A DNA stretch of 64,000 nt, taken from the NCBI RefSeq assembly GCF_000813725.1, contig NZ_JWLD01000022.1:1-64000 (forward strand). Direction: 5' to 3'. A program made the position numbers and the translations under genes. The stretch comes from Leisingera sp. ANG-Vp (lineage in GTDB: Bacteria; Pseudomonadota; Alphaproteobacteria; Rhodobacterales; Rhodobacteraceae). Positions 16,773 through 56,535 of this stretch are shown here, in pieces (the first letter of the stretch is position 1; each line of letters begins with the position of its first letter). The notes under the pieces were generated by a model. It worked only from the letters and a program-made list of their open reading frames with translations. It was not told the origin of the DNA and did no database searches.

Positions 16773-17567
16773 TCAGCCAGATAGGTCGGGCAGTTTCACC
16801 CGATCTTCGAGATACGGCAGGCGGGCCTGAGCTATGGAAATTTCACTTTTTTCGGCCTGCACGCACAGCAGTTCTTCTCCTTCGCCTGCTCTGGCCAGTT
16901 CCTGCCCGTTGGGGGCAATGACGCAGCTGCCACCGAAGAAACCCATGCCGTTCTCATGGCCGCAGGAATTCGCGTAGCAGACATAGATGCCGTTCTCAAA
17001 AGCCCGCGCCGGAATGATGTTATTGGCTACTACGCCCCACTGCGTGCCCAAGGCTGTGGGAACCAGGACAATCTCGGCACCGGCCTGGGCAACTGCGCGA
17101 AAGGTTTCCGGAAATTCGGCGTCATAGCAGATCAGCGTGGCGGCTTTGAACCCATTCAGTTCGAACAGCGTGTAGCTGCTGCCGGGGCAGAAGTGATTGC
17201 CTTCAAAGCCGGGCGGCAGCAGCAGCTTGCGGTGGGTTGCCAGACGCGCCCCGTCCTTGCCGATGCAGGAGGCGGAATTGTAAAAGCGTCCGTTCCTTTG
17301 TTCGGCAAAGCCGTAGTGGATGGCGACCCGGTGCGCCCGTGCAAGCGCTGCAATTTCCTGGGCGGAGGGTCCGTCAGCGGTTTCCGCCCATTCGGCAACC
17401 CGGCTTCCGATGTTATAGCCGGTCAGGAACAGCTCTGGCAGGGCAAGCAAGTCCGTTTGCTGGCCGTCCAGCCGGGACAGGCAGTCCCGCAGCCAGGTCA
17501 GCCGCGCCTGCGGACCCTCAAGGTCCGCAGGGCTTTGGGCAACAGCGATATTCAGGCTGTCAGTCAT
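16773..17567 (-). CDS. Carbon-nitrogen hydrolase (nitrilase superfamily amidase)
   Basis: The 264-residue product carries the complete Glu-Lys-Cys triad: LALPELFLTGYN (Glu45), THRKLLLPP (Lys114) and LICYDAEFPE (Cys147). Length and motifs point to the amidase/omega-amidase side of the superfamily rather than true nitrilases. It acts in the cytoplasm on a C-N bond of an amide or N-carbamoyl compound. The gene follows the M24 gene by only 3 bp, so the two are co-translated and the enzyme probably processes the product of that hydrolase or the imported substrate. N-carbamoyl-amino-acid hydrolysis is a reasonable guess because the M24 protein is creatinase-like. Confidence 0.85.
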   Translation of the reverse strand: MTDSLNIAVAQSPADLEGPQARLTWLRDCLSRLDGQQTDLLALPELFLTGYNIGSRVAEWAETADGPSAQEIAALARAHRVAIHYGFAEQRNGRFYNSASCIGKDGARLATHRKLLLPPGFEGNHFCPGSSYTLFELNGFKAATLICYDAEFPETFRAVAQAGAEIVLVPTALGTQWGVVANNIIPARAFENGIYVCYANSCGHENGMGFFGGSCVIAPNGQELARAGEGEELLCVQAEKSEISIAQARLPYLEDRVKLPDLSG

Positions 17568-17570
17568 GGC

Positions 17571-18728
17571 TCAGCCCTTGCTCAGCAGGATTTCGCGGGG
17601 GTAGCTGGTGATGTAGTTGGTGCCGGTTTCGGTCACCACCACGGAATCCCCGATCCGGCCTGCGGTCACACCATCAACCGAGATGCCCCCATCCACCGCA
17701 AATGTCATACCGGGCTGCAGCACTGTCTTATCGCCTTCCTTCAGCTCGGGGGCCTCCAGGTAGGCAACGCCAATGGAGCGGCCGGTGCGGTAGCCGGTTT
17801 CATAGCCGCGGGCGCGGTAGACCTCATTGGCTGCAGCGGCGACCTCTTCGGCCAGGACGCCGGGTCGCATCACCGCAATCGCGGCCTGCTGGGCTTCGAT
17901 GGCGGCCTCCTGCACGTCGCGGGCCTGGTCCGTCACATCACCGATGTGGAACATGCGGTCAAAGCCCAGTTTATACTGTTTGAACTGCGCCATGTTGCAG
18001 AAGCAGAAATAGACCGGGTCGAACTTCTCGTAAGCCTTCACGCTGGCACGGCGGTGCACCATCGAGGCGTCTTTGCCGCTCTGCAGGATTTGCAGGTTGT
18101 GGATCATCGGTGAAACAAAGCGGTCCCAGCCCTTGGCGGTCAGGAAGGTGGCCGCCTTGCGCGAGCCTGCCTCAATCACGGCCAGAGCGCTTTCATACTC
18201 CTGCGCGCCTTCGCGCAGACTGTCATGGGCGGCAGCCATCATTGCGCCGGCGATCTGGCCTGCTTCCTTCATGACGCCGATCTCGAACGGTGTCTTAATA
18301 GTGCGCATGGCGCCCAGCACCGGCGAGATATCTTTCAGCGGCATGCCGGGATAGGTGTCATCCAGATGGTTCCGCACGATAGCGGGGATAGAACCGCGCT
18401 CGATCCAGATCTCCTTGGGGTTTTCACCCAGGGCGCCCGCCAGAGCACGGCCCCAGCTGCGCTGGCCGATGTCTTCCCAGGTACGCACGTCCTCGACCCA
18501 GGTCATTTCCGCCACCATTTCGGATTCCATCAGCGGGGTGATGACGATGGGGGCATCATTGGCGTCGACAACCAGCATGGTGGGGCGGCCGAACTCGATC
18601 CCAAGATAGCCCCAGAACCCGGCCAGATAGGCGATAGAGCTTTCGTCGGTAAAGACGGCCTTGGCGATACCCTCTTGGCGCATGCGGTCCTGCAGGCCGA
18701 GGGTCCGTGTCTTGGCTTCTTCCAGCAT
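17571..18728 (-). CDS. M24-fold (creatinase-like) hydrolase lacking the metal site
   Basis: The 385-residue product has a creatinase N-domain (KAVFTDESSIAYLAGFWGYL, GIEFGRPTMLVV) and a pita-bread C-domain. The five metal ligands of M24 peptidases are mostly missing: the first Asp region reads YFCFCNMAQ, the His in GHG.G is Arg in TGYRTGRSIGVA, EPG is VDGG, and the last Glu is Gly in RIGDSVVVTE. Only the second Asp (GFDRMF) stays. Metal-free members such as creatinase and ectoine hydrolase still hydrolyse amidine, guanidine or cyclic C-N bonds, so this is likely a similar non-peptidase. It is 40 bp after dctM and 3 bp before the amidase. The N-domain resembles the M24 gene at 63443. Confidence 0.8.
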   Translation of the reverse strand: MLEEAKTRTLGLQDRMRQEGIAKAVFTDESSIAYLAGFWGYLGIEFGRPTMLVVDANDAPIVITPLMESEMVAEMTWVEDVRTWEDIGQRSWGRALAGALGENPKEIWIERGSIPAIVRNHLDDTYPGMPLKDISPVLGAMRTIKTPFEIGVMKEAGQIAGAMMAAAHDSLREGAQEYESALAVIEAGSRKAATFLTAKGWDRFVSPMIHNLQILQSGKDASMVHRRASVKAYEKFDPVYFCFCNMAQFKQYKLGFDRMFHIGDVTDQARDVQEAAIEAQQAAIAVMRPGVLAEEVAAAANEVYRARGYETGYRTGRSIGVAYLEAPELKEGDKTVLQPGMTFAVDGGISVDGVTAGRIGDSVVVTETGTNYITSYPREILLSKG

Positions 18729-18768: not shown

Positions 18769-20064
18769 TCAGTCCAGCAAACTCGGCAGGAACAGGGCGA
18801 CGGGCGGCACGAAGGTCACGATCAGGACCATCGGCAGGTGCCCCAGCAGCAGGAATTTCATGGTCGGGCCGACGTAGACCGACAGCGGCTGGCGGGTGAC
18901 GCCGCCGGCCATGTAGAGGAGCGGTGCGCAGGGCGGGGAGATGTTGCCAAGCCCGAGGTTGGTGCCGACGATAGCGGCGAAGTGGATCGGGTCCAGGCCG
19001 ATCTTCTGGGTGACCGGCAGCAGGATGATGGCTGCCAGCACGCCGCCGGAGACATCGTCGATGATCATGCCCATGATCAGCAACAAGAGGTTGATCAGCA
19101 AGAGGATGACGATCTTGTTGTCTGAGATCGTCAGCAGCAGGTCGGCAAATTGCGTGGGCACCTTGGCCAGCACCATGCCGCGGCTCATTACAAACAGGAA
19201 GAACAACACCATCAGGATTGCGCCGGTCAGCCGGGCGGCCTCAACCGTTGAGTTGAACAGCATCTGCATCGGCAGAGAGCGGTAGATCGCAATGCCCACG
19301 ATCAGCGTATAGACCAGCGCCACAGCACCTGCCTCAGTCGGGGTGGCGATGCCGCTGTAGATACCGCCCAGCACGATCACCGGCATGATGATGGCCAGGC
19401 TCGCTTTCTTGCCGGTTGTTGCGGCCTCGGCCAGGGTGTCACGCAAGGGCAGCTTGGGCGCGGTGGTGATAGTTGTGTTATTGCGCAAAAAGAAGAAGTT
19501 CAACCCGCAGTAGATCAGCGCCAGCAGCACGCCCGGCCCCATGGTGGCGAGGAAGCACTTGGCGACGGATTCCCGGATCGCAATGGCAAAGACGATCATC
19601 GGGATCGAGGGCGGGATCATCAGTGCCAGCACCGAAGAGACCGCGACCAGCGCGGTGGCATGGCCGGGCGGATAGCCCTCCTTGATCATCCGCGGCACCA
19701 TGATCTTGCCGATTGCGGCAATGGCGGCCGAGGCGCTGCCGGAGATTGCACCGAACAGCGCACAAGTGATGACGGTGACGGCGCCCAGCCCGCCCTTGGC
19801 ACGGCCGACAAAGCTGTTCACGAAGTTCAAGAGCCGCTCGGAAATGCCAGAGGCGCCCATCAGCGTGCCCGACAGGATGAACAGCGGGATCGCCAGCAGC
19901 GAGAAGGCGCTGACCTGGGAATAGCCAAAGCCGGCATGGAAAGAGATATTGGTGCCGGACATCAGCCCATAGGCCAGCGCACCGGCACCGAAGGCGAAGC
20001 CGACGGGAACTTCGATCAGCAGCAGCAGGATAATGGCCAGGAAGGCGATAAGGAATACGGTCAT
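18769..20064 (-). CDS. TRAP transporter large permease (DctM family)
   Basis: The 431-residue product has about 12 membrane helices and DctM signatures such as ALFGAISGSASAAIAAIGKIMVP (split by residues), MIKEGYPPGHATALVAVSS, LALMIPPSIPMIVFAI and NLGLGNISPPCAPLLY. It forms the sodium-driven channel subunit for the DctP-bound substrate in the inner membrane. The start lies 4 bp after the small-permease stop. Upstream partners are dctQ (20069) and dctP (20734), and downstream are the M24, nitrilase and PhzF genes, all in one transcript. The substrate is not known; TRAP systems favour organic anions. Confidence 0.9.
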   Translation of the reverse strand: MTVFLIAFLAIILLLLIEVPVGFAFGAGALAYGLMSGTNISFHAGFGYSQVSAFSLLAIPLFILSGTLMGASGISERLLNFVNSFVGRAKGGLGAVTVITCALFGAISGSASAAIAAIGKIMVPRMIKEGYPPGHATALVAVSSVLALMIPPSIPMIVFAIAIRESVAKCFLATMGPGVLLALIYCGLNFFFLRNNTTITTAPKLPLRDTLAEAATTGKKASLAIIMPVIVLGGIYSGIATPTEAGAVALVYTLIVGIAIYRSLPMQMLFNSTVEAARLTGAILMVLFFLFVMSRGMVLAKVPTQFADLLLTISDNKIVILLLINLLLLIMGMIIDDVSGGVLAAIILLPVTQKIGLDPIHFAAIVGTNLGLGNISPPCAPLLYMAGGVTRQPLSVYVGPTMKFLLLGHLPMVLIVTFVPPVALFLPSLLD

Positions 20065-20068
20065 AGGG

Positions 20069-20674
20069 TCAGTCTCCGCCTTTTCCGGTAAGCAGCGCGC
20101 GCGCTTCCAGGAAGACTTGCAAAATCAGATAGAGGACCATCAGGGCGAAGCCGCTCACCATGCTGAAGTCCCAGATGTATTTGGGCAGCCGCATGTAGGT
20201 GCTCTTGCGGTTCAAAGAGAGGTTGTAGGCCGCAAAATCCCAGGCGAACCAGGCAAAGACCGCAACCGTCACCAGGCAGCACAGGGTACCGAACAGGCGG
20301 ACAGTTAGCAGCGTTTCGCGGTTCTGTGTCAGGAGCGTCAGTACGCCGCCCTCGATATGGTCGCGCTCGCGGGTGCAATAGGCCATGCCGATGAAGTAGA
20401 TCCAGAGGGCCAGCATCGGTGCCAGCTCCTCGATCCCCAGGAAGGGCGAGGCGATCACGTAGCGCATGAACACCTGGGCCGCCATCAGCAATCCCAGGGC
20501 GATCATGGCGGCGAACAGCACCACCCGCATTAGCAGCGCCACCCTGTCCTCAATGGCAAAAAGCCCGCCAAGCCCGCGGTAGACAGCTGCCGATGGATCA
20601 CTGCCGACCGGCATGATCGGCTCTGGGGTCAGGACGTTGTCCAAGCTGTCCGTGTGTAAAAGCTCTTTGGTCAT
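20069..20674 (-). CDS. TRAP transporter small permease (DctQ family)
   Basis: The 201-residue product has four membrane segments (LLMRVVLFAAMIALGLLMAA; APMLALWIYFIGMAY; LFGTLCCLVTVAVFAWFAW; FSMVSGFALMVLYLILQVF) with the DctQ pattern AQVFMRYVIASPFLGIEELA. The N-terminal 35 residues before the first helix are longer than usual. It joins DctM in the membrane. A strong hairpin separates it from dctP upstream. Confidence 0.88.
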   Translation of the reverse strand: MTKELLHTDSLDNVLTPEPIMPVGSDPSAAVYRGLGGLFAIEDRVALLMRVVLFAAMIALGLLMAAQVFMRYVIASPFLGIEELAPMLALWIYFIGMAYCTRERDHIEGGVLTLLTQNRETLLTVRLFGTLCCLVTVAVFAWFAWDFAAYNLSLNRKSTYMRLPKYIWDFSMVSGFALMVLYLILQVFLEARALLTGKGGD

Positions 20675-20696
20675 GCGCCGTTCTCCTCAGCCGGTG

Positions 20697-20724
20697 CAGT
20701 GCCCGGGCCGCTGCCCGGGCACTG
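20697..20724 (-). promoter_or_regulatory. Intercistronic hairpin between dctP and dctQ
   Basis: CAGTGCCCGGGC pairs perfectly with GCCCGGGCACTG over a 4-nt loop (12 bp). It lacks a T tract, so it probably protects the upstream dctP mRNA or lowers read-through rather than ending the operon. Confidence 0.7.
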
Positions 20725-20733
20725 GGTTTCGGA

Positions 20734-21738
20734 TCAGTTGCCGCCTGCGGCAGCCTTGATCTGGCCCATCACTTCGGCGCCGATGATCTGCTCCATGTAG
20801 GGGTATTCCACCGCGGTCACCTGCTGGCGGTAGGCGTCCAGCTGCTCGGGCGTCAGCTCGACAACCTCAATTCCGGCCTCTTTCATCTGGGCAAACCACT
20901 TGGGGCTTTCGGCTTCGGCGTTTTCCCAGGCCCAGGCCACAGCCTCATCCGCAGCAGTGCGGATCCAGCCCTGCTGTTCTTCGCTCAGGCCATCGAACCA
21001 GCGCTTGTTGGCGGTCCAAAACGTGTGCTCGAAGTTCTCGCGGGTGAAGACGTAGGCGCTGACCACATCCTTGAACAGCAGCACTTCGGAGGGCGGCGAA
21101 TAGGCACGGCCGTCGACGGCGCCGGTCTGCAGGGCTGTATGCACCTCACTGAAGGCCATCGGGACGGGCGCAAAGCCAGTGGCTTTGTAACGCTCAATGG
21201 CCATCGGCATGCCGGGTACCCGCATTTTGAAGCCCTCAGCCTCTTCCGGGAAGCTGGTCGGCACCTCAACGCCCTTGCGCACCACAAAGCCGGTGAAATC
21301 GGTCGGGATCGTGCCCAGAAGCACCATGCCCAGGTCGTTCATGATGCCGTCATAGACGGAGTTCATGACCGAGCCCGGTCCATAGACTTCGCGCCCGGTT
21401 TCCCAGTCTCTGGCGACATAACCCAGCACTGACACATCCCACCGCGGGTCCAGCTCGGAATGGTTCCAGGACATGGTCATTTGCACCGCGCCCTGCGACA
21501 CCTGCTCGACGATCGAGGTCCAATCCCCCAGGTCGCCGCCTGGATGGTAGTCAACGTTCAGCGTGCCGCCGGACAGTTCCTCCAGCCGCGCCGAGAAGCG
21601 CTCGGATACCTGATGGAAGATGTGCTGGGTGTCCATCACATGGCCCAGAATGATGTCCTCAGCCCGCGCCGCAGGCAGCGTGGCGGCCAGAACGCCAGCC
21701 GCCGCGGCACCCGCTTTTATTAGTGTTGCGATCCCCAC
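20734..21738 (-). CDS. TRAP transporter solute-binding protein (DctP family)
   Basis: GTG at 21738 follows GAGGAAACC and opens a signal peptide (LIKAGAAAAGVLAATLPAARA, then EDIILGHV). The 334-residue precursor shows DctP features: FHQVSERFSARLEELSGGTL, SMTMSWNHSE-type strand, and VRKGVEVPTSFPEEAEGFKMRVPG, where the Arg of KMRVPG is the conserved carboxylate-binding residue. FAPVPMAFSEVHTALQTGAVDG is the second signature. It captures an acidic substrate in the periplasm for the DctQM permease. It diverges from the EutA-like gene at 21902 across a promoter region with a GntR-type palindrome. Confidence 0.9.
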   Translation of the reverse strand: MGIATLIKAGAAAAGVLAATLPAARAEDIILGHVMDTQHIFHQVSERFSARLEELSGGTLNVDYHPGGDLGDWTSIVEQVSQGAVQMTMSWNHSELDPRWDVSVLGYVARDWETGREVYGPGSVMNSVYDGIMNDLGMVLLGTIPTDFTGFVVRKGVEVPTSFPEEAEGFKMRVPGMPMAIERYKATGFAPVPMAFSEVHTALQTGAVDGRAYSPPSEVLLFKDVVSAYVFTRENFEHTFWTANKRWFDGLSEEQQGWIRTAADEAVAWAWENAEAESPKWFAQMKEAGIEVVELTPEQLDAYRQQVTAVEYPYMEQIIGAEVMGQIKAAAGGN

Positions 21739-21901: not shown

Positions 21902-22627
21902 ATGTTTGATGAAGGCCGCCACCACCGGGCGAAGATCGGCTTTGTCCTGCTGGCCACGGAACAGACAATTGAGGATGACATGTTCCTCCTGTGCCCCAAC
22001 GGGGTTGGAGTGCATTTCGCCCGCGCCTGGATCGGGGACAGCATAACGGTCAACAGCCTCAGCCAGCATGCCGAGGATCTGGCTCGAGCTGCCTCAACGC
22101 TGCTGCCGGATGGCAGCCTCGATGTGATCTGCTACGGCTGCACCTCCGGCAGCCTGGTCATCGGAGAAGACCGGGTTGCCGCGGAATTGAAAAAGGGCGC
22201 GCCAAACTCCAAGGCCACCAGCCTGATCACTGCCGTCCTGGAGGCCCTGCGCGCTGTTGGCGCCAAACGTGTTGCAATTGCTACGCCCTACCTGGACGAG
22301 ATCAACGATCAGGAAGCCCAATACCTGGAAAAGGCGGGGGTTCAGGTCGCACGGATTCACGGGCTGCAGCTGGAAAAAGACAGCGACATGATACGTGTCA
22401 GCCCTAGGTATCTGGCCGAGTTTGCCAAGAAGGCAGACACGCCAGACAGCGACGCGCTGTTCATCAGCTGTGGGGCGTTGCGATCGCTGGAGATCGTGGA
22501 TCGGCTGGAACAGCAGCTGGGAAAGCCGGTGATCTGCTCCAACCAGGCAATGATGTGGCATGTGTTGCGCCTAGTCGGTGTCCCGGACCAGATCAAAGGA
22601 TACGGCCGGCTGCTCCGGGAGCACTGA
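21902..22627 (+). CDS. EutA / maleate isomerase / arylmalonate decarboxylase superfamily protein
   Basis: ATG at 21902 lies 4 nt after GGAGAG; the longer frame upstream overlaps dctP and is rejected. The 241-residue product has the two catalytic cysteines of the Asp/Glu-racemase-like superfamily: YGCTSGS (Cys80) and FISCGAL (Cys190), plus the family end pattern GKPVICSNQAMMWHVLR. Known members isomerise maleate, decarboxylate arylmalonates, or (EutA) take part in hydroxyectoine use. It diverges from the TRAP operon and precedes the GntR gene. The reaction is probably a proton transfer or C-C/C=C rearrangement on the imported acid. Two paralogues occur at 39448 and 54570. Confidence 0.8.
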   Translation: MFDEGRHHRAKIGFVLLATEQTIEDDMFLLCPNGVGVHFARAWIGDSITVNSLSQHAEDLARAASTLLPDGSLDVICYGCTSGSLVIGEDRVAAELKKGAPNSKATSLITAVLEALRAVGAKRVAIATPYLDEINDQEAQYLEKAGVQVARIHGLQLEKDSDMIRVSPRYLAEFAKKADTPDSDALFISCGALRSLEIVDRLEQQLGKPVICSNQAMMWHVLRLVGVPDQIKGYGRLLREH

Positions 22628-22701: not shown

Positions 22702-23400
22702 TTGTCTGCAGAGGCCGTACCACTGACACCACCAGTTTGGGGAGACCGCAAGCCGGGTGTTGAGGACATTCAGCGCCTGATCCTGAAACGGATCTGCTTT
22801 CTGGAGTACACGCCTGGAGACCGGCTGAAGGAGGCGGAACTGGCCGAGGAATTCGGAGTGAGCCGCACCCCGGTGCGCGATGCGATCAGCCGGATCAGTC
22901 ACCTAGGCTTGGTGGAAACGATCAACGGTGTCGGCAACGTCGTGATGGAGCTGCCACCGGAAAAGATTGCCCATGTCTACGATATGCGTCTGCATCTGGC
23001 TTCGCTGATTGGCGCAACGGCGCCCGCTGAGATCGAAGACAGCCACCTGGAACGCGCCCGCGACCTTCTAGAGCAGGCTCATCAGCTCAGCGGGCAAGTG
23101 GATTCCCGCCAATATGTCATCGTGAACGATCAGCTGAACACGCTGATCAGCGATCTGATCGGCAATTCGGTCCTGCGCTCTTTCTGGACCCAGGCCTATT
23201 ACCAAGCGGCCAGCACCTGGCACAGGGTTGTCGACTGCGCAGGTGCGGAAGTGGCGGATGCTTTGGTTGCCGAACTTGTGGATCTCGAAAACGCCTTGAT
23301 CGAGAAGGATATCCAGGCTGTCGGGTACATTCAACGCATCCACATTGGCTATGGATATGCCCGCATCAGGAAGTTTCTGTTCAGCGAAACAGCTAAGTAA
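22702..23400 (+). CDS. GntR-family regulator (FCD type)
   Basis: TTG at 22702 follows AAGGAAG by 5 nt, and no ATG gives a full HTH. The 232-residue product has the winged HTH (GDRLKEAELAEEFGVSRTPV, RDAISRISHLGLVETING) and an all-helical FCD ligand domain (YDMRLHLASLIGA ... FWTQAYYQAASTWHRVVD). The metal-binding His set of FCD domains is only partly visible (HIGYGY near the end). It follows the EutA-like gene by 74 bp and likely controls the TRAP operon and the EutA-like gene through the palindrome at 21807. Confidence 0.82.
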   Translation: MSAEAVPLTPPVWGDRKPGVEDIQRLILKRICFLEYTPGDRLKEAELAEEFGVSRTPVRDAISRISHLGLVETINGVGNVVMELPPEKIAHVYDMRLHLASLIGATAPAEIEDSHLERARDLLEQAHQLSGQVDSRQYVIVNDQLNTLISDLIGNSVLRSFWTQAYYQAASTWHRVVDCAGAEVADALVAELVDLENALIEKDIQAVGYIQRIHIGYGYARIRKFLFSETAK

Positions 23401-24489: not shown

Positions 24490-25164
24490 CTATTCAGCGG
24501 CATTCTTTAAAGTGGCCATCAGCTGATGGAACTTCTCACCCTGGACGGCCACGTGCTCTCGCAGTGTATTGGCAGCAAGGTCCGACGTTCCCATTTCCAG
24601 TGCCCGAACGATATGTTCATGTTCGGCCATTGATTGTGCCATCCGGCCGCGGAAGCGCAGCTGCTGGCGGCGGAACGGTTTCAGCCGTTTGTGCAGTTTT
24701 GTAGCTTCCTGAGCCAAAAAACCGTTGCCCGACTGCTGGTAGATGATTCTGTGGAAGCGCTCGTTTTCGGCGTAGTAGGCGTCCGAGTCGCGGGCGTCGA
24801 CTGCGGCCTGGCAGTTTGAATTGGCGTCCCGCAGCTCCTCAAGCGCTTGGTCGGTGATCCGCAAGGCCGCAAGCCGGCCGCAAACCGCCTCCAGCTCTGC
24901 CATCACCTCGAACATCTCCATTAGCTCCACCGGTCCGGGCTGGCGCACAAAGGCGCCGCGGCGCGGGATCAGCTCGACCAGACCGGAAAGGGCAAGCCGT
25001 TGAAAGGCTTCGCGAAGCGGCGTGCGCGAAACGCCAAACTGCTCGGCCAGCCGGACCTCGTCCAACCGGTCACCGTCAGAAAAAGTTCCGTTGAATATCA
25101 GCTCTTCCAGCTGCTCGGCGATGTTGTCGGCGCGGCGTTGTTCCATGGTTTCAGGTTTACTCAT
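24490..25164 (-). CDS. matR: GntR-family regulator (FCD type), probable MatR
   Basis: ATG at 25164 (MSKPETMEQRRADNIAEQL) gives 224 residues; the longer frame would run through the operator and into the divergent transporter gene. The winged HTH is clear (GDRLDEVRLAEQFGVSRTPL, REAFQRLALSGLVELIPRRG), and the C-terminal FCD domain has the metal-type residues in NERFHRIIYQQSGN and MAEHEHIVRALE. It diverges from the malonate TRAP and matAB genes and is presumably their malonate- or malonyl-CoA-responsive repressor. The perfect palindrome at 25194 lies 30 bp upstream of its start. Confidence 0.8.
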   Translation of the reverse strand: MSKPETMEQRRADNIAEQLEELIFNGTFSDGDRLDEVRLAEQFGVSRTPLREAFQRLALSGLVELIPRRGAFVRQPGPVELMEMFEVMAELEAVCGRLAALRITDQALEELRDANSNCQAAVDARDSDAYYAENERFHRIIYQQSGNGFLAQEATKLHKRLKPFRRQQLRFRGRMAQSMAEHEHIVRALEMGTSDLAANTLREHVAVQGEKFHQLMATLKNAAE

Positions 25165-25193
25165 GGCGCGGGTAAAATTCAACCTTGGCATTC

Positions 25194-25203
25194 TTGTATA
25201 CAA
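25194..25203. promoter_or_regulatory. Probable MatR operator
   Basis: TTGTATACAA is a perfect palindrome between matR and the divergent TRAP binding-protein gene, fitting the FCD-GntR half-site pattern TTGTA. Confidence 0.65.
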
Positions 25204-25283
25204 AAACATTGACTTGAAAAACAAAGAACGTTTACCCTTTTGCCATCCCCTGGTCCGCCAGGAGAGTTTTAAGGGAGGAAAAA

Positions 25284-26270: not shown

Positions 26271-26291
26271 CCCCCTCGCCTGACTGCCGCC

Positions 26292-26313: not shown

Positions 26314-26346
26314 GCTCCCCCTCAACTTCTTCAACAACGGGAGGCG

Positions 26347-26892: not shown

Positions 26893-26897
26893 AGCCG

Positions 26898-29455: not shown

Positions 29456-29470
29456 GAAAGGCAAAACCCC

Positions 29471-47284: not shown

Positions 47285-48712
47285 CTATTGCGCAGCCGCC
47301 GTCAGCCGCGGGAAGAGATACTCCTTCACTGCGGCTTCTCCTCCAACGCAGCCCAGCCCGCTCTGCTTAATGCCGCCAAAGGGCACGTCGATATATGCGG
47401 TCGTCAGCTGGTTCACCGCGACGCTGCCGACCTGCAGCCGGGCACCAACGGATTCGGCTTCAGCCTGATCGGGTCCATAGACATAGCCGGACAGCGCCAG
47501 CTCGCAGTTGTTGGCCTCGGCAATCACCGCTTCAAGGTCGTCATAGGGGGTGATGCAGGCAATCGGGCCAAAGATCTCCTCGCGCAGGCCCAGGGCGTCC
47601 CAGGGCACATCGGCAAAGACCTTGGGCGAGACCCAATTGCCGCCTTCCTGCGGTGCGGGGTCATTCACGATGGCGGTTGCGCCCTTGGCCATGGCATCTT
47701 CGGCAATCCGCTGCATTGAGGCGACGCGCTCGGTGGTGGCCAGCGGCCCCATGGTGGTCGCGTCTTCCAGCCCGTGGCCCAGAACCAGATTGCGCACATA
47801 GGCACCGGCGGCCTCGGCAAAGGCATCATGCTGGGCGCGGTTCACGAAGATCCGGTTCGGTGCGGTGCAGACCTGGCCTGCGTTCCAGAACCGCTTGGAA
47901 ATTAGCGCTTTGGCGGCGGCTTCCACATCTGAACCCGGCAGCACAATGGCGGGTGCATTGCCGCCCAGTTCCAGTGTGCAGCGCATGATCTCGGCACCGC
48001 ATTGCGCCGCCAGTTGGCGGCCCACCCGCACCGAGCCGGTATAGGACAGATGCCGGGTGGCGGGGTGCTTGATCAGCGCCTCCGACAGCACCGCCGAAGA
48101 CCCCATCAAGAGGTTCACTGCGCCCTCCGGCAGGCCCGCCTCATGCATCAGACCGATCAGCCGGGCCACCGAGGCCGGGGTGGAGTTGTTGGCGATCACC
48201 ACCGCGGTGCAGCCCGCCGCCAATGCTGGCGCCAGGTGCACGGCTGCGGTCTCAACCGGGAAGTTCCAGGTGGTGATGATGATCACCGGCCCGGCCGGGA
48301 TCATGTCGATGGTGCGGTTGGTGCCCTTGTCGGGGCGCTCATAGCGGAACGCCATGGTTTCCGCGAGTGAGGCGAAATGCTCGAACATCTCGACCACTCC
48401 ATCCATCTCCATCCGTGCTTCGGCCAGCGGCTTACCCTGCTCTGCGGTGATCAGGCGCGACAGCTCTTCATGCGCCTCCTGTACCCGCTGAGCTATGGCG
48501 CCCAGCATCCGTGCCCGCTGCTTTGGCGGCAAGGCAGACCAGGCGGGGAAGGCCTTGGCCGCTGCGTCGGCTGCCAATCGGGCGTCGTCTGCAGTCGCGC
48601 AGACCACAGTCCCAATAGGTGCACCTGTTGAAGGGGATAGATTGTTGCGAATTTCACGATCAGCTGACGGCTGCCAAGTTCCGTTGATCAAAGGTGCGCA
48701 GTTTTGGGCCAT
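47285..48712 (-). CDS. NAD(P)-dependent aldehyde dehydrogenase (succinate-semialdehyde type)
   Basis: The 475-residue product has the ALDH catalytic Glu in TLELGGNAPAIVLPG and Cys in FWNAGQVCTAPNRIFV, plus the Asn of ITTWNFPVE and the end PFGGIKQSGLGCVGGEAAVKEYL. It resembles GabD/DoeC-type semialdehyde dehydrogenases. It converges on the GMC gene but its promoter has the same ATAATATATTAT palindrome as the cluster, so it is likely co-regulated and oxidises the aldehyde made by the aminotransferase or GMC enzyme. Confidence 0.88.
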   Translation of the reverse strand: MAQNCAPLINGTWQPSADREIRNNLSPSTGAPIGTVVCATADDARLAADAAAKAFPAWSALPPKQRARMLGAIAQRVQEAHEELSRLITAEQGKPLAEARMEMDGVVEMFEHFASLAETMAFRYERPDKGTNRTIDMIPAGPVIIITTWNFPVETAAVHLAPALAAGCTAVVIANNSTPASVARLIGLMHEAGLPEGAVNLLMGSSAVLSEALIKHPATRHLSYTGSVRVGRQLAAQCGAEIMRCTLELGGNAPAIVLPGSDVEAAAKALISKRFWNAGQVCTAPNRIFVNRAQHDAFAEAAGAYVRNLVLGHGLEDATTMGPLATTERVASMQRIAEDAMAKGATAIVNDPAPQEGGNWVSPKVFADVPWDALGLREEIFGPIACITPYDDLEAVIAEANNCELALSGYVYGPDQAEAESVGARLQVGSVAVNQLTTAYIDVPFGGIKQSGLGCVGGEAAVKEYLFPRLTAAAQ

Positions 48713-49302: not shown

Positions 49303-52300
49303 TCAGGCGATACTCACATCATCGAGGCCAAGGATCGTAACCGTGACTACTTGGCTGTCGATGCCTCCATTTCCGTCGTCCACTGTATATGTGAACGTGT
49401 CCGTGGCGCTTTCACCCGCATTCAAGTGCTCAAAGGCGCCATTGGCGGAAAAGGTAAAGGTGCCGTCGCCATTGTTGACGACAGACCCCGAAGTGGCGCT
49501 GTCATCCAGGCCGAAGGTGAAAGTATCGCTGTCTGGGTCCGTGAAATCCGCCGAAACGGTGATGTCCGGGCTGGGGCCGTTGACCGTTGCCTCGAAGGTC
49601 ATGGCATCGACGCCCAGATCATCTGTCGTGTTGATTTCGTAATCGAACGGCCCCATGTCGACCGACACATCCACGCTGCGGCCGTCTCCCAGATCGATAC
49701 CTGTGAGGGTCAGCGAAATGCTATCGACATCCTGGTTCGTATCACCGAATGCGAGCCAGACAGGGTTGGCAAGCGAGGTGGAGCCGCCGCTGGTGTCGGT
49801 GATGTCATATTCCGTGCTGGATACCGGCTGGCCGACCCCGTCGACAAAGACCTGCGACCCCAAGCTCCACCCTGAATTATTCGGGTTAGGATGCACGATC
49901 AGGCCATTCCCGGATGATAGGTGCTGCGCAGCGATCTGATCGAATGTGTTGTTCGCGCCGCCGTCGCGCGGAAGCGTGATGGCCGTACCCGTATCAAAGT
50001 CGAACACATACCAGCGGCCGATATTGCCCATCGTCGTGCTGCCAATGTTGTCGGACAGGACGGTCTGGGGATCTTCCTGAACAGAAGCTGACACGGCTTC
50101 GGCATCCGGCGCGTCATTGGCGCCGGTAACAGTTACAGTTACGGTTTTTGTGTCGCTGCCGCCATTGCCGTCGTCAACTGTCACGTCAAAGCTTTCGGTT
50201 GCCGTTTCGCCCGGCGCAAGGTGATCAAACGCGCCATTGGCGCTGTAAGCGAAGCTGCCGTCCCCGTTGTTGACCACTTGCCCCGCAAGCCCGGCGGTAT
50301 TTGCACTGTAGGTCAGGGTGTCGTTTGTATCCGCATCGGAGGCGTCAAACTGGAAGGTTGCGCTGCCGCTGTCCTCTGAGACCTGAGCGGCCTCGACTGG
50401 GGCATCGCTTTCAACGAGGCTGGTGCCAAAGTTGTTGACCGTGCGGCCGTTGGGGGACTGATCTTCGTAGCTGCCGTTCAAGGGCAGATACAATTCCAGG
50501 CCTGCCTCGCTGCCATCCAGGGGCTGATCATAGCTGGAGGCAATTTCCGAGGCATCCCGGGTAACGGACCAGATGCGGACATCAGCGATATCACCGTCAA
50601 AATAGTTGCCGCTAAAGCTGGAAGAAAAACGGCCGATGGCGATTTCCTGGCTGCCGGTCAGCGGGGAGGCTGAGCCGACGTCGAGCGATCCCGCAAACAC
50701 GCCATCGACATAGAGCGACAGAGTGTTTGTCGTGCTGTCAAAGGTGCCTGCCATGTGGTGCCAGCCGCCGTCAGCAACATCCACCGCTTCGACCTGACGG
50801 CCTGCTCCGTTGTCAAGGCGGACATGCGCCTGGCCGTTATGGACCACCAGCGAGTAGGTCTGACCGCCTCCGACCGGAGCAGAAATCACACGGTTATAGG
50901 CCGCGTCATCATCCGTTGTGCGTACCCAGGCTTCGATCGTCCAGTCGTCAGCGCGCAAGCCAGGATCAGAGGCGATGCTGAGATAGGTGTCCGACCCGTT
51001 GAAGGCGGCAGCCTGACCGGTGATCACCGGGTCGCCGAGGTCAGGTTCGTCGTTCTGGCCAGTTACGGTGACGGTCACGGTTTCGGTACCGGTTCCGCCA
51101 TTGCCGTCATCAACCGTGTAGGTGAAAGTGTCGGTTGCGGTCTCTCCGGCTGCCAGATGCTCGAATGCACCGTCTGCGTCATAGCCGAAGGTGCCGTCGC
51201 CGTTGTTGGTGACAGTCCCTTGCGTGCCTGCTGTATCGATGCTGAACGTGTGGGTGTCGGACGCGTCGGCGTCAGAGAAATCCGCACTGATGGTCACGGC
51301 CGGGCCGTCTTCGTTTGCATCGCCGCTGACTGCCAGCGCCACCGGAGCATCGTTCTGGCCGGAGACTGTGACCGTCACGGTTTCAGTATCAAAACCGCCA
51401 TTGCCGTCATCTACAGTGAAGGCGAAGGTGTCGGTTGCGGTCTCCCCGGCTGCCAGATGCTCAAAAGCACCGGCAGGGTCATAGCTGAATGTGCCGTCGC
51501 CATTGTTTGTGACAGTCCCCTGGGTGCCGGTTGTATCGACGCTGAACGTGTGAGTGTCAGACGCGTCGGCGTCAAAGAACACCGCGTCAACCGTGACCGC
51601 CGGGCCATCTTCATCCGCCGTGGCAGATACCGCGGATGCAACCGGACCGTCATTTTCGCCTTGAATAGTGATCTCATAGCTGACTTCGGTTGTGCCGCCT
51701 TCACCATCAGACAGAACCAGGGTCACGGTCTCGGTGGTTGTCTCACCGGCGGCGAGATAGTCATAGCTGCTGCCGGGGTCAAACGAGATCTGGAGGCCGC
51801 TGCTGGACCCGGTCACGGCATCTTCGGAGGCGCCTCCCTGCACAACGGCAAGGCTGCCGCCGCCGGTCACGGTGGCGGAGTCGAGCGAAACGGGGTCGCC
51901 GTCCAGATCATAGACATCCACATTGAACGCAAATGAATCATTCTCGGCTGTCTCGAGGTATTCTCTCCGCAGAACCGCCAGAGGTCCGTTGTTGCTGTTC
52001 AGGTCCAGCGTGAAGTCATCGAACACCAGCACTTCGAAGCGGTGCAGGAAATCACAGCCGTCATCGCCTGAGACAAACATCCAGCGGCCGCCAGGGAATG
52101 TTACGATTTTGTAGTCCAGCACCGAACCGGAAAAGACTGCAGTATCCCGGCCTCTGCCGCCGAACATGACGTCGTTGCCGCCGCCGCCGGTCACTGTGTC
52201 ATCGCCGGAGCCGGACATAATCCAGTCTCCGAACCCTGAACCGGTGATGTCGTCATCGCCCCGGTGTGTTCTGACAAAAGCACCATGACTGCTGCCGGAT

Positions 52301-52362
52301 AAGTCGATCTCCTGATCCTGATGCCGGCTGTTGTTCAAATAACCGCGTCCGCGATAGCCCAT
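49303..52362 (-). CDS. Large VCBS/LamG/RTX-like surface or secreted protein
   Basis: ATG at 52362 gives 1019 residues; a TTG 45 bp upstream extends the frame but lacks a ribosome-binding site. An RTX-like calcium motif region lies near the start (GDDDITGSGFGDWIMSGSGD, GGGGNDVMFGGRGRD). Four VCBS/cadherin-like repeats follow at about residues 237-336, 337-437, 655-752 and 915-1015, each with NNGDGTF.Y...GAFEHL..GE and TVDDGNGG. A LamG-like domain (about 450-640; WTIEAWVRTTDD, DGGWHHMAGTFDS) sits in the middle. Such proteins are adhesins exported by type I secretion, but no transporter genes are nearby and the typical glycine-rich C-terminal signal is not obvious. The end directly after a VCBS repeat may reflect truncation. 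Confidence 0.85.
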   Translation of the reverse strand: MGYRGRGYLNNSRHQDQEIDLSGSSHGAFVRTHRGDDDITGSGFGDWIMSGSGDDTVTGGGGNDVMFGGRGRDTAVFSGSVLDYKIVTFPGGRWMFVSGDDGCDFLHRFEVLVFDDFTLDLNSNNGPLAVLRREYLETAENDSFAFNVDVYDLDGDPVSLDSATVTGGGSLAVVQGGASEDAVTGSSSGLQISFDPGSSYDYLAAGETTTETVTLVLSDGEGGTTEVSYEITIQGENDGPVASAVSATADEDGPAVTVDAVFFDADASDTHTFSVDTTGTQGTVTNNGDGTFSYDPAGAFEHLAAGETATDTFAFTVDDGNGGFDTETVTVTVSGQNDAPVALAVSGDANEDGPAVTISADFSDADASDTHTFSIDTAGTQGTVTNNGDGTFGYDADGAFEHLAAGETATDTFTYTVDDGNGGTGTETVTVTVTGQNDEPDLGDPVITGQAAAFNGSDTYLSIASDPGLRADDWTIEAWVRTTDDDAAYNRVISAPVGGGQTYSLVVHNGQAHVRLDNGAGRQVEAVDVADGGWHHMAGTFDSTTNTLSLYVDGVFAGSLDVGSASPLTGSQEIAIGRFSSSFSGNYFDGDIADVRIWSVTRDASEIASSYDQPLDGSEAGLELYLPLNGSYEDQSPNGRTVNNFGTSLVESDAPVEAAQVSEDSGSATFQFDASDADTNDTLTYSANTAGLAGQVVNNGDGSFAYSANGAFDHLAPGETATESFDVTVDDGNGGSDTKTVTVTVTGANDAPDAEAVSASVQEDPQTVLSDNIGSTTMGNIGRWYVFDFDTGTAITLPRDGGANNTFDQIAAQHLSSGNGLIVHPNPNNSGWSLGSQVFVDGVGQPVSSTEYDITDTSGGSTSLANPVWLAFGDTNQDVDSISLTLTGIDLGDGRSVDVSVDMGPFDYEINTTDDLGVDAMTFEATVNGPSPDITVSADFTDPDSDTFTFGLDDSATSGSVVNNGDGTFTFSANGAFEHLNAGESATDTFTYTVDDGNGGIDSQVVTVTILGLDDVSIA
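51052..51654 (-). repeat. Two tandem VCBS-repeat coding units
   Basis: Two adjacent units of about 300 bp encode near-identical VCBS repeats (shared DEDGPAVT, DADASDTHTFS, GTQGTVTNNGDGTF, GAFEHLAAGETATDTF). The high DNA identity implies recent duplication and makes the copy number prone to change. Confidence 0.75.
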
Positions 52363-52490
52363 TGGTGCAAACCCCCATTTACCAAAAAAGGCGGCTATCC
52401 AGCTCAATTCCGGTGCTGGCGCTGCCTTTTTTCCGGCACCCCCCGCGCCGGAACTCTCAGATACAATTCAATTTGAAGGTTAACTAGGCA

Positions 52491-53670: not shown

Positions 53671-54414
53671 TCACCCTCTTACGATGGCATGCGCAGAGAA
53701 TTCTGCGAGCTCGCCCCGCCAGATTTGACGGCCAAAGCAGAACGGCTTTCCGTTCGCCCCGTAGATTACCTGCTCCAGTTCAATTCCGGCATTATAGGTG
53801 GGCAGGCCCAGCAGGCCGGCTTCGTCCTCGTTCAGCGCGCGCATCCGTATCGTGATGTCACCGGAATGCGGCGGCATGTCATACTCCTTCTCCATCAGCG
53901 TCGTGGTCGATTGCTGCAGATTGTGATCAAGCAGGCCGGGAAAGAGACGGGCGACAGCGTATTCCTCTTCAATGAAGGCAGGATGATCCTTGAGAAGAAA
54001 TACCCTGGTGTATTTGTAAAGCGCCTCGCCTTCGGCGACAGCCAGTTTGGCAGATAAAGCTGCATCAGCTTCAATCGTCTGCTGTGAAACTACCTTGATC
54101 GTCAGGCCAAGTTCTTCCTTGCCGGCCAGAGCAGAGAGGCTGACTGTCCTGCTGATATCGTAGGTCAGCCGCTGCGGTGAAACGAATCTGCCGCGGCGGC
54201 CGGAACTATAGGCCAATCCTTCCATTTCAATAGCCAGGAGCGCGCGTCGGGCGGTCATTCTGCTGATCCCGAACTGCTCTCCGATGGCTCTTTCCGAGGG
54301 CAGCGATGCGTGCGGAGCCAGTCCGCCGCTAAGGATCTGTTCCCGCAGGTGGTCAATAACCATCTGAAAAGCAGGTGTTTTCTTTTCTTCGTCCGAGTCG
54401 GTTCGATTCATCAT
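53671..54414 (-). CDS. GntR-family regulator (HutC/UTRA type)
   Basis: The 247-residue product has the winged HTH (APHASLPSERAIGEQFGISR, MTARRALLAIEMEGLAYSSG, RRGRFVSP) and a UTRA ligand domain (YKYTRVFLLKDHPAFIEEEY, VARLFPGLLDHNL, GIELEQVIYGANGKPF). ATG at 54414 or 54411. It diverges from the EutA-like, M24 and DMGDH-like genes. Two identical palindromes at 54437-54466 in the shared promoter are its obvious operators, so it probably represses both itself and the right-going operon until the substrate binds. Confidence 0.87.
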   Translation of the reverse strand: MMNRTDSDEEKKTPAFQMVIDHLREQILSGGLAPHASLPSERAIGEQFGISRMTARRALLAIEMEGLAYSSGRRGRFVSPQRLTYDISRTVSLSALAGKEELGLTIKVVSQQTIEADAALSAKLAVAEGEALYKYTRVFLLKDHPAFIEEEYAVARLFPGLLDHNLQQSTTTLMEKEYDMPPHSGDITIRMRALNEDEAGLLGLPTYNAGIELEQVIYGANGKPFCFGRQIWRGELAEFSAHAIVRG

Positions 54415-54569: not shown

Positions 54570-55352
54570 ATGAATGCAGTGCCGGACATTCAATCGCTGC
54601 AGTTTGACAGTGATGGAGGGCTGGGTGGCAAAGCCAGGATTGGTCTGATCGTTCTTCAATCCGACCAGACTCTGGAGCATGAGCTCTCCGGTGTTCTCCG
54701 GCAGCCGGGTGTGGCGCTGTACCACGCGCGGATCCCGAATGAGATGGAAGTCACTTGCGGTACGCTGCAGAAGATGGAGGCGGACCTGCCGGCCGCAGCG
54801 GCGCTGCTGCCTGCTTCCTTTGAGCTGGATGCCATTGGCTATTGCTGCACTTCCGGGGCAACAATGATCGGCGAGGCGCGTGTGGATGCAATCCTGCGCA
54901 GCGTGCACCCGGCCGCAAAAACCACAAATCCACTGACCGCCTGCAAGGCGGCGCTCAAAGCGCTGAAACTAAGCCGGATTGCGCTGATAACGCCCTATGA
55001 GGCCGAGGTCACGGCCGGGATGCGGAACAATCTGGCCGCGGCCGGCATTGAAGTGAACGCTATTGGCAGCTTCAACCAGGCCGATGATTTCAAAGTCGCC
55101 CGGATTTCCTCTCAGAGCATTCTGGCGGCGGTTAAGGAGATCGGGCAGCGGACAGATTGCGACGGCGTGTTCGTCTCCTGCACCAGCCTGCGGGTCATGG
55201 GCATCCTGGCCGAGGCTGAGAGCGCACTCGGGAAACCCGTTTTGTCCAGCAATCAGGTCACAGCCTGGCATCTGGCCCGGCTCGCAGGGCTGCGCAACGG
55301 CGTGCCTGGAGCCGGCATGCTGTTCCACACCCAATTGAAGTTGCAGGATTGA
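54570..55352 (+). CDS. EutA / maleate isomerase superfamily protein
   Basis: ATG at 54570 follows GGAGGAAGG. The 260-residue product has the two catalytic cysteines, YCCTSGATMIG (Cys93) and FVSCTSLRVMG (Cys204), and the end motif KPVLSSNQVTAWHLARL. It is the third such protein in the window. It is the first gene of the right-going operon and ends 4 bp before the M24 gene. In this setting with a DMGDH-like enzyme it may isomerise or racemise an N-methylated acid so that the downstream enzymes accept it (inference). Confidence 0.82.
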   Translation: MNAVPDIQSLQFDSDGGLGGKARIGLIVLQSDQTLEHELSGVLRQPGVALYHARIPNEMEVTCGTLQKMEADLPAAAALLPASFELDAIGYCCTSGATMIGEARVDAILRSVHPAAKTTNPLTACKAALKALKLSRIALITPYEAEVTAGMRNNLAAAGIEVNAIGSFNQADDFKVARISSQSILAAVKEIGQRTDCDGVFVSCTSLRVMGILAEAESALGKPVLSSNQVTAWHLARLAGLRNGVPGAGMLFHTQLKLQD

Positions 55353-55356
55353 CACG

Positions 55357-56535
55357 ATGACGGACATGCACCCCGCTGCGGACCGCGGGTTTACCACACA
55401 GGAGTTCGAACAGCGCACCGCTGCAGCCCAGAAGATCATGGCGGGTCTCGGGCTGGATGCACTGCTGCTCACCACAGAGCCGGAAGTGCGCTATTTCACT
55501 GGCTTCGACACCATCTTCTGGCTCAGCCCCACCCGGCCCTGGTTTGTGGTGATCCCGGCAGAAGGTGCGCCGATTGCGGTGATCCCGGAGATCGGCGGCC
55601 CCAGCATGTCGCTGACCTGGATTTCGGATGTCCGGACCTGGCTGGCACCCCAGCCAGAGGATGACGGTATTTCCCTGCTGGTGGAAACTCTGCGCGAGGT
55701 GATGCCCAACGGCGGCACGCTGGGGCTGCCGATGGGCCACGAAACCCATGTGCGCATTCCGGCTGCGGATTTTCAACGGCTGCAAGAGCGCCTGGACGGT
55801 GTTTCGGTCGCCGACGGCACCGATGTTGTCCGCCGCCTGAGAATGGTGAAATCCCGCTCTGAGATCGCTAAAATCGCCCGGATTTGCAGCATTGCGTCTT
55901 CTGCCTTCGAAGAATTGCCGAATTACATCAAGGCCGGTGACACCGAACGCCAGGCCTTTGCCAAATTCAAGATCGACCTGCTGCAAAAAGGTGCCGATGA
56001 CGTGCCGTATCTGGTTGGCAGTTCGGGGCTTGGCGGGTTTGAGGATGTGATCAACCGGCCAACGGACCGGATGATTGAGGACGGCAGCATGCTGCTGCTG
56101 GATACCGGCGCGCTCTGGGGCGGTTACAGCTGCGACTTTGACCGGAATTATGCTTTTGGCCATGCCTCGGATGAGGCCAGGTCTGCTTACGATCTGGCCT
56201 GGCGTGCAACTGAGGCGGGATTGCAGGCAGCGCGTCCGGGTATCACCACCACCTACCTGTGGGGCGTGATGGCCAAGGTGCTGGAAGACGGCGGCTGCAG
56301 CGGCCATCAGATCGGCCGCATGGGGCACGGGCTGGGCATGCAGGTGACCGAATGGCCCTCGCTGATGCCTGGAGACAATACGGTGATTGAAGAGGGCATG
56401 GTGCTGACACTGGAGCCCGGACTCTCCTTCGGCGGCGGCAAGATGATGCTGCACGAAGAAAACATCGTCATCCGAGAGGATGGTGCCGAACTGCTGTCGC
56501 GCCGGGCGGCGCGTGAGCTTCCGATTATTACCTAA
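55357..56535 (+). CDS. M24-family metallohydrolase (Xaa-Pro peptidase/creatinase fold) with intact metal site
   Basis: The 392-residue product has a creatinase N-domain (MAGLGLDALLLTTEPEVRYF, TGFDTIFWLSPTRPWFVVIP) and a complete M24 metal site: LLLDTGALWGGYSCDFDRNY (two Asp), RMGHGLGMQVTEWPS (His), TLEPGLSF (Glu) and MLHEENIVI (Glu). It could therefore be a true dinuclear-metal peptidase or amidohydrolase, unlike the M24 protein at 17571. Its place between EutA-like and DMGDH-like genes suggests release of an N-methylated glycine derivative from a larger amide, guanidine or peptide. Confidence 0.85.
   Translation: MTDMHPAADRGFTTQEFEQRTAAAQKIMAGLGLDALLLTTEPEVRYFTGFDTIFWLSPTRPWFVVIPAEGAPIAVIPEIGGPSMSLTWISDVRTWLAPQPEDDGISLLVETLREVMPNGGTLGLPMGHETHVRIPAADFQRLQERLDGVSVADGTDVVRRLRMVKSRSEIAKIARICSIASSAFEELPNYIKAGDTERQAFAKFKIDLLQKGADDVPYLVGSSGLGGFEDVINRPTDRMIEDGSMLLLDTGALWGGYSCDFDRNYAFGHASDEARSAYDLAWRATEAGLQAARPGITTTYLWGVMAKVLEDGGCSGHQIGRMGHGLGMQVTEWPSLMPGDNTVIEEGMVLTLEPGLSFGGGKMMLHEENIVIREDGAELLSRRAARELPIIT

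Follow-up and report, generated by a model that had tools for sequence, protein, structure and literature searches.

We found that genes of one branch of the EutA family and genes for M24 hydrolases are joined well beyond ectoine breakdown, and that the two partners largely co-diverge. Four such pairs begin in a stretch of 64,000 nucleotides from Leisingera sp. ANG-Vp (contig NZ_JWLD01000022.1, positions 1 to 64,000 of the forward strand), referred to here as the window. A first-pass annotation had proposed that one catabolic kit, consisting of a EutA-like protein with two cysteines, an M24 hydrolase, an uptake system and a GntR regulator, is repeated three times in this DNA, and that the EutA-like protein and the M24 hydrolase share a joint step outside ectoine breakdown. 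We find instead that this genome contains several differently evolved copies of a two-gene EutA/M24 unit of the kind found in ectoine breakdown, which suggests that a hydrolase-plus-racemase logic is reused on other nitrogen compounds. The module is ectoine-type catabolism in variant form, not a categorically new system.

Searches of the open-licence PMC literature, judged by the papers that they listed, brought up none on EutA together with M24 outside ectoine breakdown. Some clusters that would be labelled as ectoine genes by automatic annotation are, by these results, probably of another kind. In addition, a EutA branch that is tied to M24 in several lineages with different third enzymes offers a direct way to test the role of EutA.

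EutA-like and M24 genes in the window and the genome

The genes of the window sit at or very near the coordinates first given for them. EutA-like genes are present at 21902, 39448 and 54570, and each product has both cysteines. M24 genes are present at 17571, 37320, 55357 and 63443, and the last of these extends beyond the end of the window. The contig runs 3.5 kb farther, and a fourth EutA-like gene lies there (64585-65379 in window numbering), overlapping the last M24 gene by one base and followed by soxB and soxA. This fourth pair, which begins inside the window, was absent from the earlier reading. We number the pairs, and the loci that contain them, 1 to 4.

EutA-like proteins 1-4 scored 211, 194, 183 and 177 bits on the EutA model TIGR02990, all below the equivalog cut-off of 318. 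That is, they belong to the EutA branch and are not EutA equivalogs. Similarly, the four M24 proteins scored 59-98 bits, below the cut-offs of the EutD/DoeA models TIGR02993 (613) and NF038259 (575).

The pairs are not copies of a single kit, as had been proposed: the M24 proteins belong to different subfamilies and have different metal sites. In alignments, the five metal ligands (D, D, H, E, E) are complete in M24 3, four of them remain in M24 2, and M24 1 and M24 4 have lost the site. M24 1 and M24 4 share CFC.M..F...KLGFDR with the other 19 rows of a 21-row alignment, and the histidine that aligns with the catalytic one of creatinase (H221) is invariant in all 21. Because the four M24 proteins differ in subfamily and metal site, one identical joint step cannot be assumed. 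Two other parts of the first-pass annotation stood: transporters and finishing enzymes are exchanged between modules, and the pairing itself extends outside ectoine breakdown (below). The substrates that it proposed, N-substituted or cyclic amino-acid-like compounds, would be compatible with our data.

The genome has 14 M24 matches and eight EutA-family matches. All six EutA matches above 170 bits are near an M24 gene (four on the window contig, one in the ectoine cluster on contig C133 and one on contig C100), and neither of the two matches below 100 bits is. The EutA on C133 (407 bits) is the only one in the genome to pass the cut-off and belongs to the true ectoine genes.

Linkage to M24 is specific to one EutA branch

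A genome survey of EutA/M24 pairing against chance, proposed in the first-pass annotation, bore the pairing out. We searched 398 genomes of Proteobacteria with TIGR02990 and scored up to six candidates per genome; 72 genomes had a match. From 104 EutA rows outside our own genome we took 78 with up to 20 kb of surrounding DNA (51 of at least 133 bits and 27 of 81-111 bits) and left out the 26 lowest. Some of these stretches end at contig ends (L105 is 3.8 kb).

An M24 gene was present within ~10 kb on either side of 39 of the 51 EutA homologues scoring at least 133 bits, and within 200 bp of 21. The chance expectation is ~2 of 51, based on an M24 density of 1.86 per Mb in the same genus. In contrast, none of the 27 relatives of 81-111 bits had an M24 gene in the stretch. 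This lower-scoring branch is a fair control for linkage. There is one exception to the contrast, a 79-bit match (G451:C1:105937) inside L051 that is ~3.7 kb from the M24 gene of an ectoine cluster. When the 18 ectoine-type loci (L040-L053 and L060-L063) were set aside, 21 of 33 high-scoring homologues were still paired. The nominal P values for linkage (4e-45 and 3e-22) are only indicative and are too small, because the genomes are related and not independent. One EutA match with a single in-frame TAG (L079, in G142) is next to three M24 genes in 6 kb.

Twelve high-scoring EutA homologues were unpaired. Six of these (L054, L056, L057, L058, L066 and L069) have a DAO-type flavin oxidoreductase gene that overlaps or lies 36-692 bp away (one such gene was checked with Pfam), and each is possibly a racemase/oxidase pair. 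This arrangement fits a racemase that feeds a stereospecific enzyme. Three others (L084, L089 and L090) have glycine at the first cysteine position. We take glycine to be the residue at this position in arylmalonate decarboxylase (AMDase), as PDB titles also indicate, and these three proteins are perhaps decarboxylases that arose separately from the known AMDases. Two of them (L084 and L090) adjoin TRAP genes. All four EutA-like proteins of our contig have cysteine at the first catalytic position, and EutA-like 1-3 (113, 72 and 69 bits) are below the cut-off of the AMDase model NF052327 (225).

EutA and M24 partners largely co-diverge

The trees of the EutA and M24 proteins contain similar groups: the ectoine proteins; EutA-like 1 and 4 with their M24 proteins; and EutA-like 3 with the C100 protein and many adjacent pairs. 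Locus 2 stands alone on a long branch in both trees. (The L008 row of the M24 tree was in the wrong frame and is to be disregarded.) Distances between EutA proteins were correlated with those between their M24 partners, with r = 0.75 over 45 pairs (0 of 2000 shuffles) and r = 0.73 over the 26 non-ectoine pairs (0 of 2000). Within our genome the correlation was 0.77 over six pairs (3 of 720 permutations, identity included). Since these six pairs share one genome, species history is not the cause of this value.

An operon with a 2,3-diaminopropionate ammonia-lyase

The operon on C100 and its substrate are the point most worth following. Here the EutA-like/M24 pair is accompanied by a 2,3-diaminopropionate ammonia-lyase and an M20 deacylase, an arrangement that is common in roseobacters. 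The lyase is the only gene in the genome over the cut-off of NF006058 (476 bits; cut-off 276) and is below that of the stricter TIGR03528 (324; cut-off 532). A second gene of the diaminopropionate ammonia-lyase family (G000:C64:105673-106572) scored 272 bits against the cut-off of 276, and its contig has no EutA or M24 matches.

Among surveyed pairs with an M24 of the C100 type, 15 of 19 had a diaminopropionate ammonia-lyase-like gene within 10 kb, counted at 150 bits or more (labels of 28-43 bits are EutB-like cross-matches and were excluded). We compared ten lyase genes, including two from outside the pair survey and one from C100, to NCBIfam. Diaminopropionate ammonia-lyase was the best family for all ten; six scored above 276 bits and four scored 248-270. 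One, from L070, also passes the strict TIGR03528 (571; cut-off 532).

We also scanned named genomes with the Leisingera C100 M24 and took the best 80 of 225 loci. This query favours roseobacters, and most record titles are those of roseobacters, as expected. Within 5 kb of the M24 gene there was a EutA gene in 71 of the 80 loci, a lyase in 68 (at least 400 bits in 53), a DoeB2-like M20 deacylase in 58 and an Lrp regulator in 46. EutA was no more than 400 bp from M24 in 67 of 80, and the strict order lyase-M24-EutA was found in 46 of 80. Searches of the open-licence PMC literature listed no paper on a diaminopropionate lyase with M24.

For the C100 lineage, the most likely end product is 2,3-diaminopropionate, which is what deacylation is predicted to yield. 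A conserved operon that ends in this lyase suggests that common marine bacteria use a nitrogen substrate so far unrecognised. One bold guess, to which we give little weight, is that this substrate of the Lrp/M20/lyase/M24/EutA operon is a natural homologue of ectoine, a five-membered cyclic amidine derived from 2,3-diaminopropionate, and that loci 3 and 4 handle N-methylated relatives. If so, a second, unrecognised ectoine-like solute would be circulating among marine microbes.

A proposed pathway and its alternatives

The explanation that we think best, and to which we give about an even chance, is that these loci are a family of ectoine-like catabolic modules, with uptake, an M24 hydrolase, often a deacylase, a EutA-like racemase and a finish by a pyridoxal phosphate (PLP) or flavin enzyme. 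We infer the order of steps, the racemase role and the class of substrate as follows. The compound imported by a dedicated TRAP or Ehu-type system would be a chiral derivative of an amino acid, its nitrogen bound in an amidine, guanidine or acyl group. The M24 enzyme, with its pita-bread fold, would cleave a C-N bond; in loci 1 and 4 it would do so in the metal-free manner of creatinase, whereas the metal site is complete in locus 3 and on C100. In many cases another hydrolase would strip the remaining acyl or carbamoyl group (the nitrilase in locus 1, the EutE-like deacylase in locus 2, the M20 enzyme on C100). The EutA-like two-cysteine enzyme would then invert a stereocentre without a cofactor, and a stereospecific PLP enzyme (2,3-diaminopropionate ammonia-lyase in C100) or a flavin enzyme (DMGDH-like, sarcosine oxidase) would finish. 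The presence of sarcosine oxidase suggests that the product of locus 4 is an N-methyl amino acid, and the transporters of Ehu type suggest that the substrates are similar to ectoine.

For hydroxyectoine, a review (PMC5924519) gives a proposal that EutA inverts a stereocentre and thereby makes the compound accessible to the PLP enzyme EutB, and describes it as not biochemically evaluated. As the order of steps is the same with another PLP enzyme (C100) or with flavin enzymes (the six unpaired loci and loci 3 and 4), the simplest role common to all would be that of a racemase. Homarine and beta-N-methylamino-L-alanine (BMAA) were considered as substrates and not kept, as no usable literature was found; stachydrine, another candidate, was not kept either.

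Several observations weigh against a family of ectoine-like modules built on a EutA-like racemase. Both cysteines were present in all 45 M24-paired EutA rows, and also in 9 of 12 unpaired rows and 7 of 9 sampled low-scoring rows; they are thus a feature of the family and not of the pairing. M24 3 and the C100 M24 keep a metal site that the EutD of this genome lacks, and it is therefore uncertain that they open a ring as EutD does. The structures nearest to EutA-like 3 are maleate isomerases, not racemases. We saw no deacylase in loci 3 or 4. One relative of locus 4 (L175) carries M24 4 and lacks EutA 4, and one relative of locus 2 (L161) has the M24 2, deacylase, aminotransferase, transporter and regulator genes, with no EutA or reductase detected there. 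Six pairs (L059-L062, L070 and L075) have EutA and M24 in different tree groups.

The partners of the locus 1/4 type of M24 are a further point of this kind. We scanned 295 genomes of the family and took 40 of 45 full-length loci from outside our own genome (the other five were left out, as were seven fragments and six weak matches; L120 is the same locus as L076). EutA was in the stretch in only 6 of the 40, and the notion that EutA and M24 always occur together is therefore rejected. A nitrilase-family gene was no more than 300 bp from M24 in 20 of 40 and an M20 gene no more than 600 bp away in 9 of 40. With one or the other in 29 of 40, compared to 6 of 40 for EutA, a second amidohydrolase is the commoner partner of this M24 type. 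Neighbours in relatives' loci were labelled by single-sequence similarity to genes of the window and loci, not by curated models.

We weighed four alternatives. The first, which we consider unlikely, is that the EutA-like proteins are not racemases but catalyse a cis-trans isomerization, as maleate isomerase does, of an unsaturated intermediate formed after the hydrolytic step. In addition to the two cysteines, structure comparisons point this way: a model of EutA-like 3 (mean predicted local distance difference test, pLDDT, 93.2) was nearest to maleate isomerases (4fq5, 4fq7, 2xec and 2xed), then to AMDases and then to racemases, and the best PDB match of EutA 2 was also a maleate isomerase. 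However, by established chemistry no cis/trans intermediate is expected before diaminopropionate ammonia-lyase, and the frequent partners are PLP or flavin enzymes, which are normally stereospecific. Furthermore, the lower-scoring branch, part of which has ACLVA/ACVQMP motifs, is unlinked to M24 (0 of 27).

It seems rather improbable that all of the clusters are redundant or variant systems for ectoine and 5-hydroxyectoine. The transporters are one reason to consider this, as both binding proteins and one permease of locus 2 are over the EhuB and EhuC cut-offs and the permeases and ATPase of locus 3/4 are over those of EhuC, EhuD and EhuA; the latter result led us to rate this alternative higher. 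Locus 2 also has EutE-, EutD- and EutA-like genes. In addition, a 2026 paper counts clusters of other phyla that have two eutD homologues but lack eutE among putative ectoine clusters, a label called tentative there (PMC13188858). Some of these clusters may be pathways of the EutA/M24 kind described here. However, this genome has its separate ectoine cluster on C133, and the window M24 and EutA-like scores are far below the EutD/DoeA and EutA cut-offs. Among genome matches to a related lyase model there was no EutB-type gene on the window contig, and diaminopropionate lyase, DMGDH and sarcosine oxidase are outside the ectoine pathway as described.

We consider it equally improbable that the M24 proteins simply cleave imported dipeptides, as ordinary peptidases of the Xaa-Pro type, and that EutA-like genes are nearby only because catabolic genes cluster. 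M24 3, with its five ligands, matches PepE and prolidases best, and prolidases are close to creatinase among the matches of M24 4. Against this, two of the four M24 proteins have no metal site, linkage is specific to one EutA branch (39 of 51 compared to 0 of 27), and the partners largely co-diverge.

Finally, a creatine/creatinine pathway in locus 4 and perhaps locus 3, in which a creatinase-like M24 yields sarcosine for sarcosine oxidase and the DMGDH-like enzyme and EutA is incidental, is very unlikely. In its favour, M24 4 matches creatinase 1chm (95 bits) best among PDB entries, the first Foldseek match of its model (mean pLDDT 89.8) is creatinase 1kp0 (EutD appears from rank 33), and soxB and soxA follow. 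Against it, prolidases score almost equally and are close behind in Foldseek, identity to creatinases is 23-24%, several residues that we take to form the creatinase pocket differ in the alignment, and EutA 4 is only 3-5 bases from M24 4 in L121, L130 and L171-L173, which is hardly incidental.

Organization of the loci

The claim that a transporter and a GntR regulator lie beside each EutA-like gene holds in full for locus 1. EutA-like 1 (21902-22627, plus strand; open reading frame, ORF, open from 21620) is followed by a GntR/FCD regulator (22702-23400, plus; Pfam). On the minus strand are the TRAP transporter genes DctM, DctQ and DctP (18769-21738; Pfam), M24 1 (17571-18728; PF00557, 102 bits; ligands lost in the alignment to 1pv9) and a CN-hydrolase, a nitrilase-family amidase (16773-17567; PF00795, 153 bits; nearest PDB entry the aliphatic amidase 5jqn). 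This set of EutA, GntR, TRAP, M24 and nitrilase is retained in three genomes of the same genus (L168-L170) and in L123. L126 has the set without the nitrilase but with PhzF and soxB/soxA-like genes. The PhzF-like isomerase (15889-16704, minus; PF02567, 166 bits), previously counted as part of the kit, is not conserved with it, being undetected in L168-L170 and L123, and we regard it as accessory.

Beside locus 1, 23657-24436 matches a phage integrase (36 bits; cut-off 27) and may be a remnant of a mobile element. The interval that separates locus 1 from locus 2 (24490-30985) has a second TRAP transporter with a GntR/FCD regulator and an AMP-dependent acid-CoA ligase, and no EutA or M24 match inside. 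The region 6833-12341, with an alpha/beta hydrolase, CoA-transferase III, enoyl-CoA hydratase, class II aldolase, Rieske ring-hydroxylating oxygenase and a divergent LysR gene, looks like a catabolic cluster for an aromatic or cyclic acid.

Locus 2 has an Ehu-type system as described, and its GntR/FCD regulator (44731-45432, plus; Pfam) is present but ~4.5 kb from EutA-like 2 (39448-40212, plus; ORF open from 39340). On the minus strand are an AraC-type regulator with a DJ-1/PfpI domain (32689-33774; Pfam; retained in L160 and L166), an EutE/DoeB-like deacylase of the AstE/AspA fold (33764-34789; TIGR02994, 226 bits, cut-off 403), a PLP aminotransferase of the 2-aminoadipate aminotransferase type (34807-36120; PDB 1x0m, 253 bits; MppQ 8tn2, 148 bits) and a delta1-pyrroline/piperideine-2-carboxylate reductase of the OCD/mu-crystallin family (36009-36938; PRK06141, 359 bits, cut-off 322). 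The last had been called a cyclodeaminase; the other finishing enzymes were as named. A role of the aminotransferase as a cyclic-guanidine enzyme (MppQ, GntC and VioD in NCBIfam) was dropped, as the best structures are 2-aminoadipate-type aminotransferases.

On the plus strand, M24 2 (37320-38483; four of five ligands in alignments to 2zsg, 3q6d and 1pv9) and an EhuB-type binding protein (38544-39398; TIGR02995, 216 bits, cut-off 190.9) precede EutA-like 2. It is followed by a second EhuB-type binding protein (40240-41097; 205 bits), an EhuC-type permease, a second permease and an ABC ATPase (41136-43321; TIGR03004, 221 bits, cut-off 197; Pfam) and a signature-family amidase (43318-44718; PF01425, 271 bits). 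Beyond the regulator are a GMC oxidoreductase of the choline-dehydrogenase type (45460-47103, plus; PRK02106, 704 bits, cut-off 605) and an aldehyde dehydrogenase (47285-48712, minus; PF00171, 445 bits).

The genes of locus 2 are conserved as an island, with all 15 labelled genes found in the same order in L166 and 13 of them in L160. L167 and L162 have GMC, GntR and EutA 2-like genes of the locus 2 kind with other partners (aldehyde dehydrogenase, aminotransferase, deacylase, or a weak M24 2 match), which suggests that locus 2 itself has variants. The 1034-aa protein encoded at 49303-52407, with Big_9/cadherin-like repeats, a LamG-type domain and a calcium-binding RTX repeat, is a probable secreted adhesin.

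In locus 3 a GntR/UTRA regulator (53671-54414, minus; Pfam) adjoins EutA-like 3 (54570-55352, plus), as had been claimed, but the Ehu-type transporter is downstream of the DMGDH-like gene and not beside EutA. M24 3 (55357-56535, plus; all five ligands in the alignment to 4ege; 55% identical to the C100 M24) is followed by the DMGDH-like FAD and GcvT N-demethylase (56554-59028, plus; NCBIfam matches of the SoxA/GcvT/ThiO type). The transporter (59357-62429, plus; binding protein, two permeases and an ATPase from 61614) is between loci 3 and 4. It passes the models for EhuC (TIGR03004, 235 bits, cut-off 197), EhuD (TIGR03003, 274, cut-off 205) and EhuA (TIGR03005, 400, cut-off 345), and its binding protein is just below that for EhuB (TIGR02995, 176, cut-off 190.9).

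In locus 4, a LysR regulator (62433-63311, minus; PF00126, 79 bits) is beside the metal-less M24 4 (63443-64585, plus). The soxB gene after EutA-like 4 scored 601 bits (cut-off 529). Only the first 190 residues of soxA are on the contig, and they scored 279 bits against the corresponding part of the model, whose cut-off is passed by a full-length relative in L172. In L171, L172 and L173, loci 3 and 4 are joined in a single block. L174, L175 and L177 retain locus 3 and the transporter, and L175 has M24 4 in addition. In L130 the locus 4 unit adjoins a diaminopropionate lyase and a C100-type M24.

Comparison with known systems

Gene clusters for ectoine that include EutA, EutD and EutE are well known from the literature (PMC3187862, PMC5924519, PMC5320631). 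Utilisation systems for ectoine and 5-hydroxyectoine (ehuABCD or uehABC with eutABCDE, ssd, atf, asnC and enuR) resemble the modules in having an EutD-type M24, EutA, a deacetylase (EutE or DoeB2), a PLP enzyme, an AsnC/Lrp or GntR-family regulator and a TRAP or Ehu transporter, and several Ehu components of loci 2 and 3/4 are over the cut-offs. In contrast, the window M24 and EutA-like proteins are far under the equivalog cut-offs, and the finishing enzymes and M24 metal sites are different.

Clusters for AMDase with TRAP, ABC or TTT transporters (PMC4996985) involve the same superfamily and a similar position beside transporters. The window proteins differ in having cysteine at both positions and in scoring below the AMDase cut-off. 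Creatinase with sarcosine oxidase resembles locus 4 in that a metal-less M24 is followed by sarcosine oxidase, but locus 4 differs in its low identity to creatinases, its EutA partner and the Ehu-type transporter upstream.

In the hydantoinase/N-carbamoylase/hydantoin racemase pathway, ring opening is followed by deacylation by a CN-hydrolase or M20 enzyme, and a cofactor-free racemase of the same superfamily takes part. The likeness to the modules is in logic only: their ring hydrolase would be an M24 enzyme, and the EutA branch is nearer to maleate isomerase and AMDase than to hydantoin racemase.

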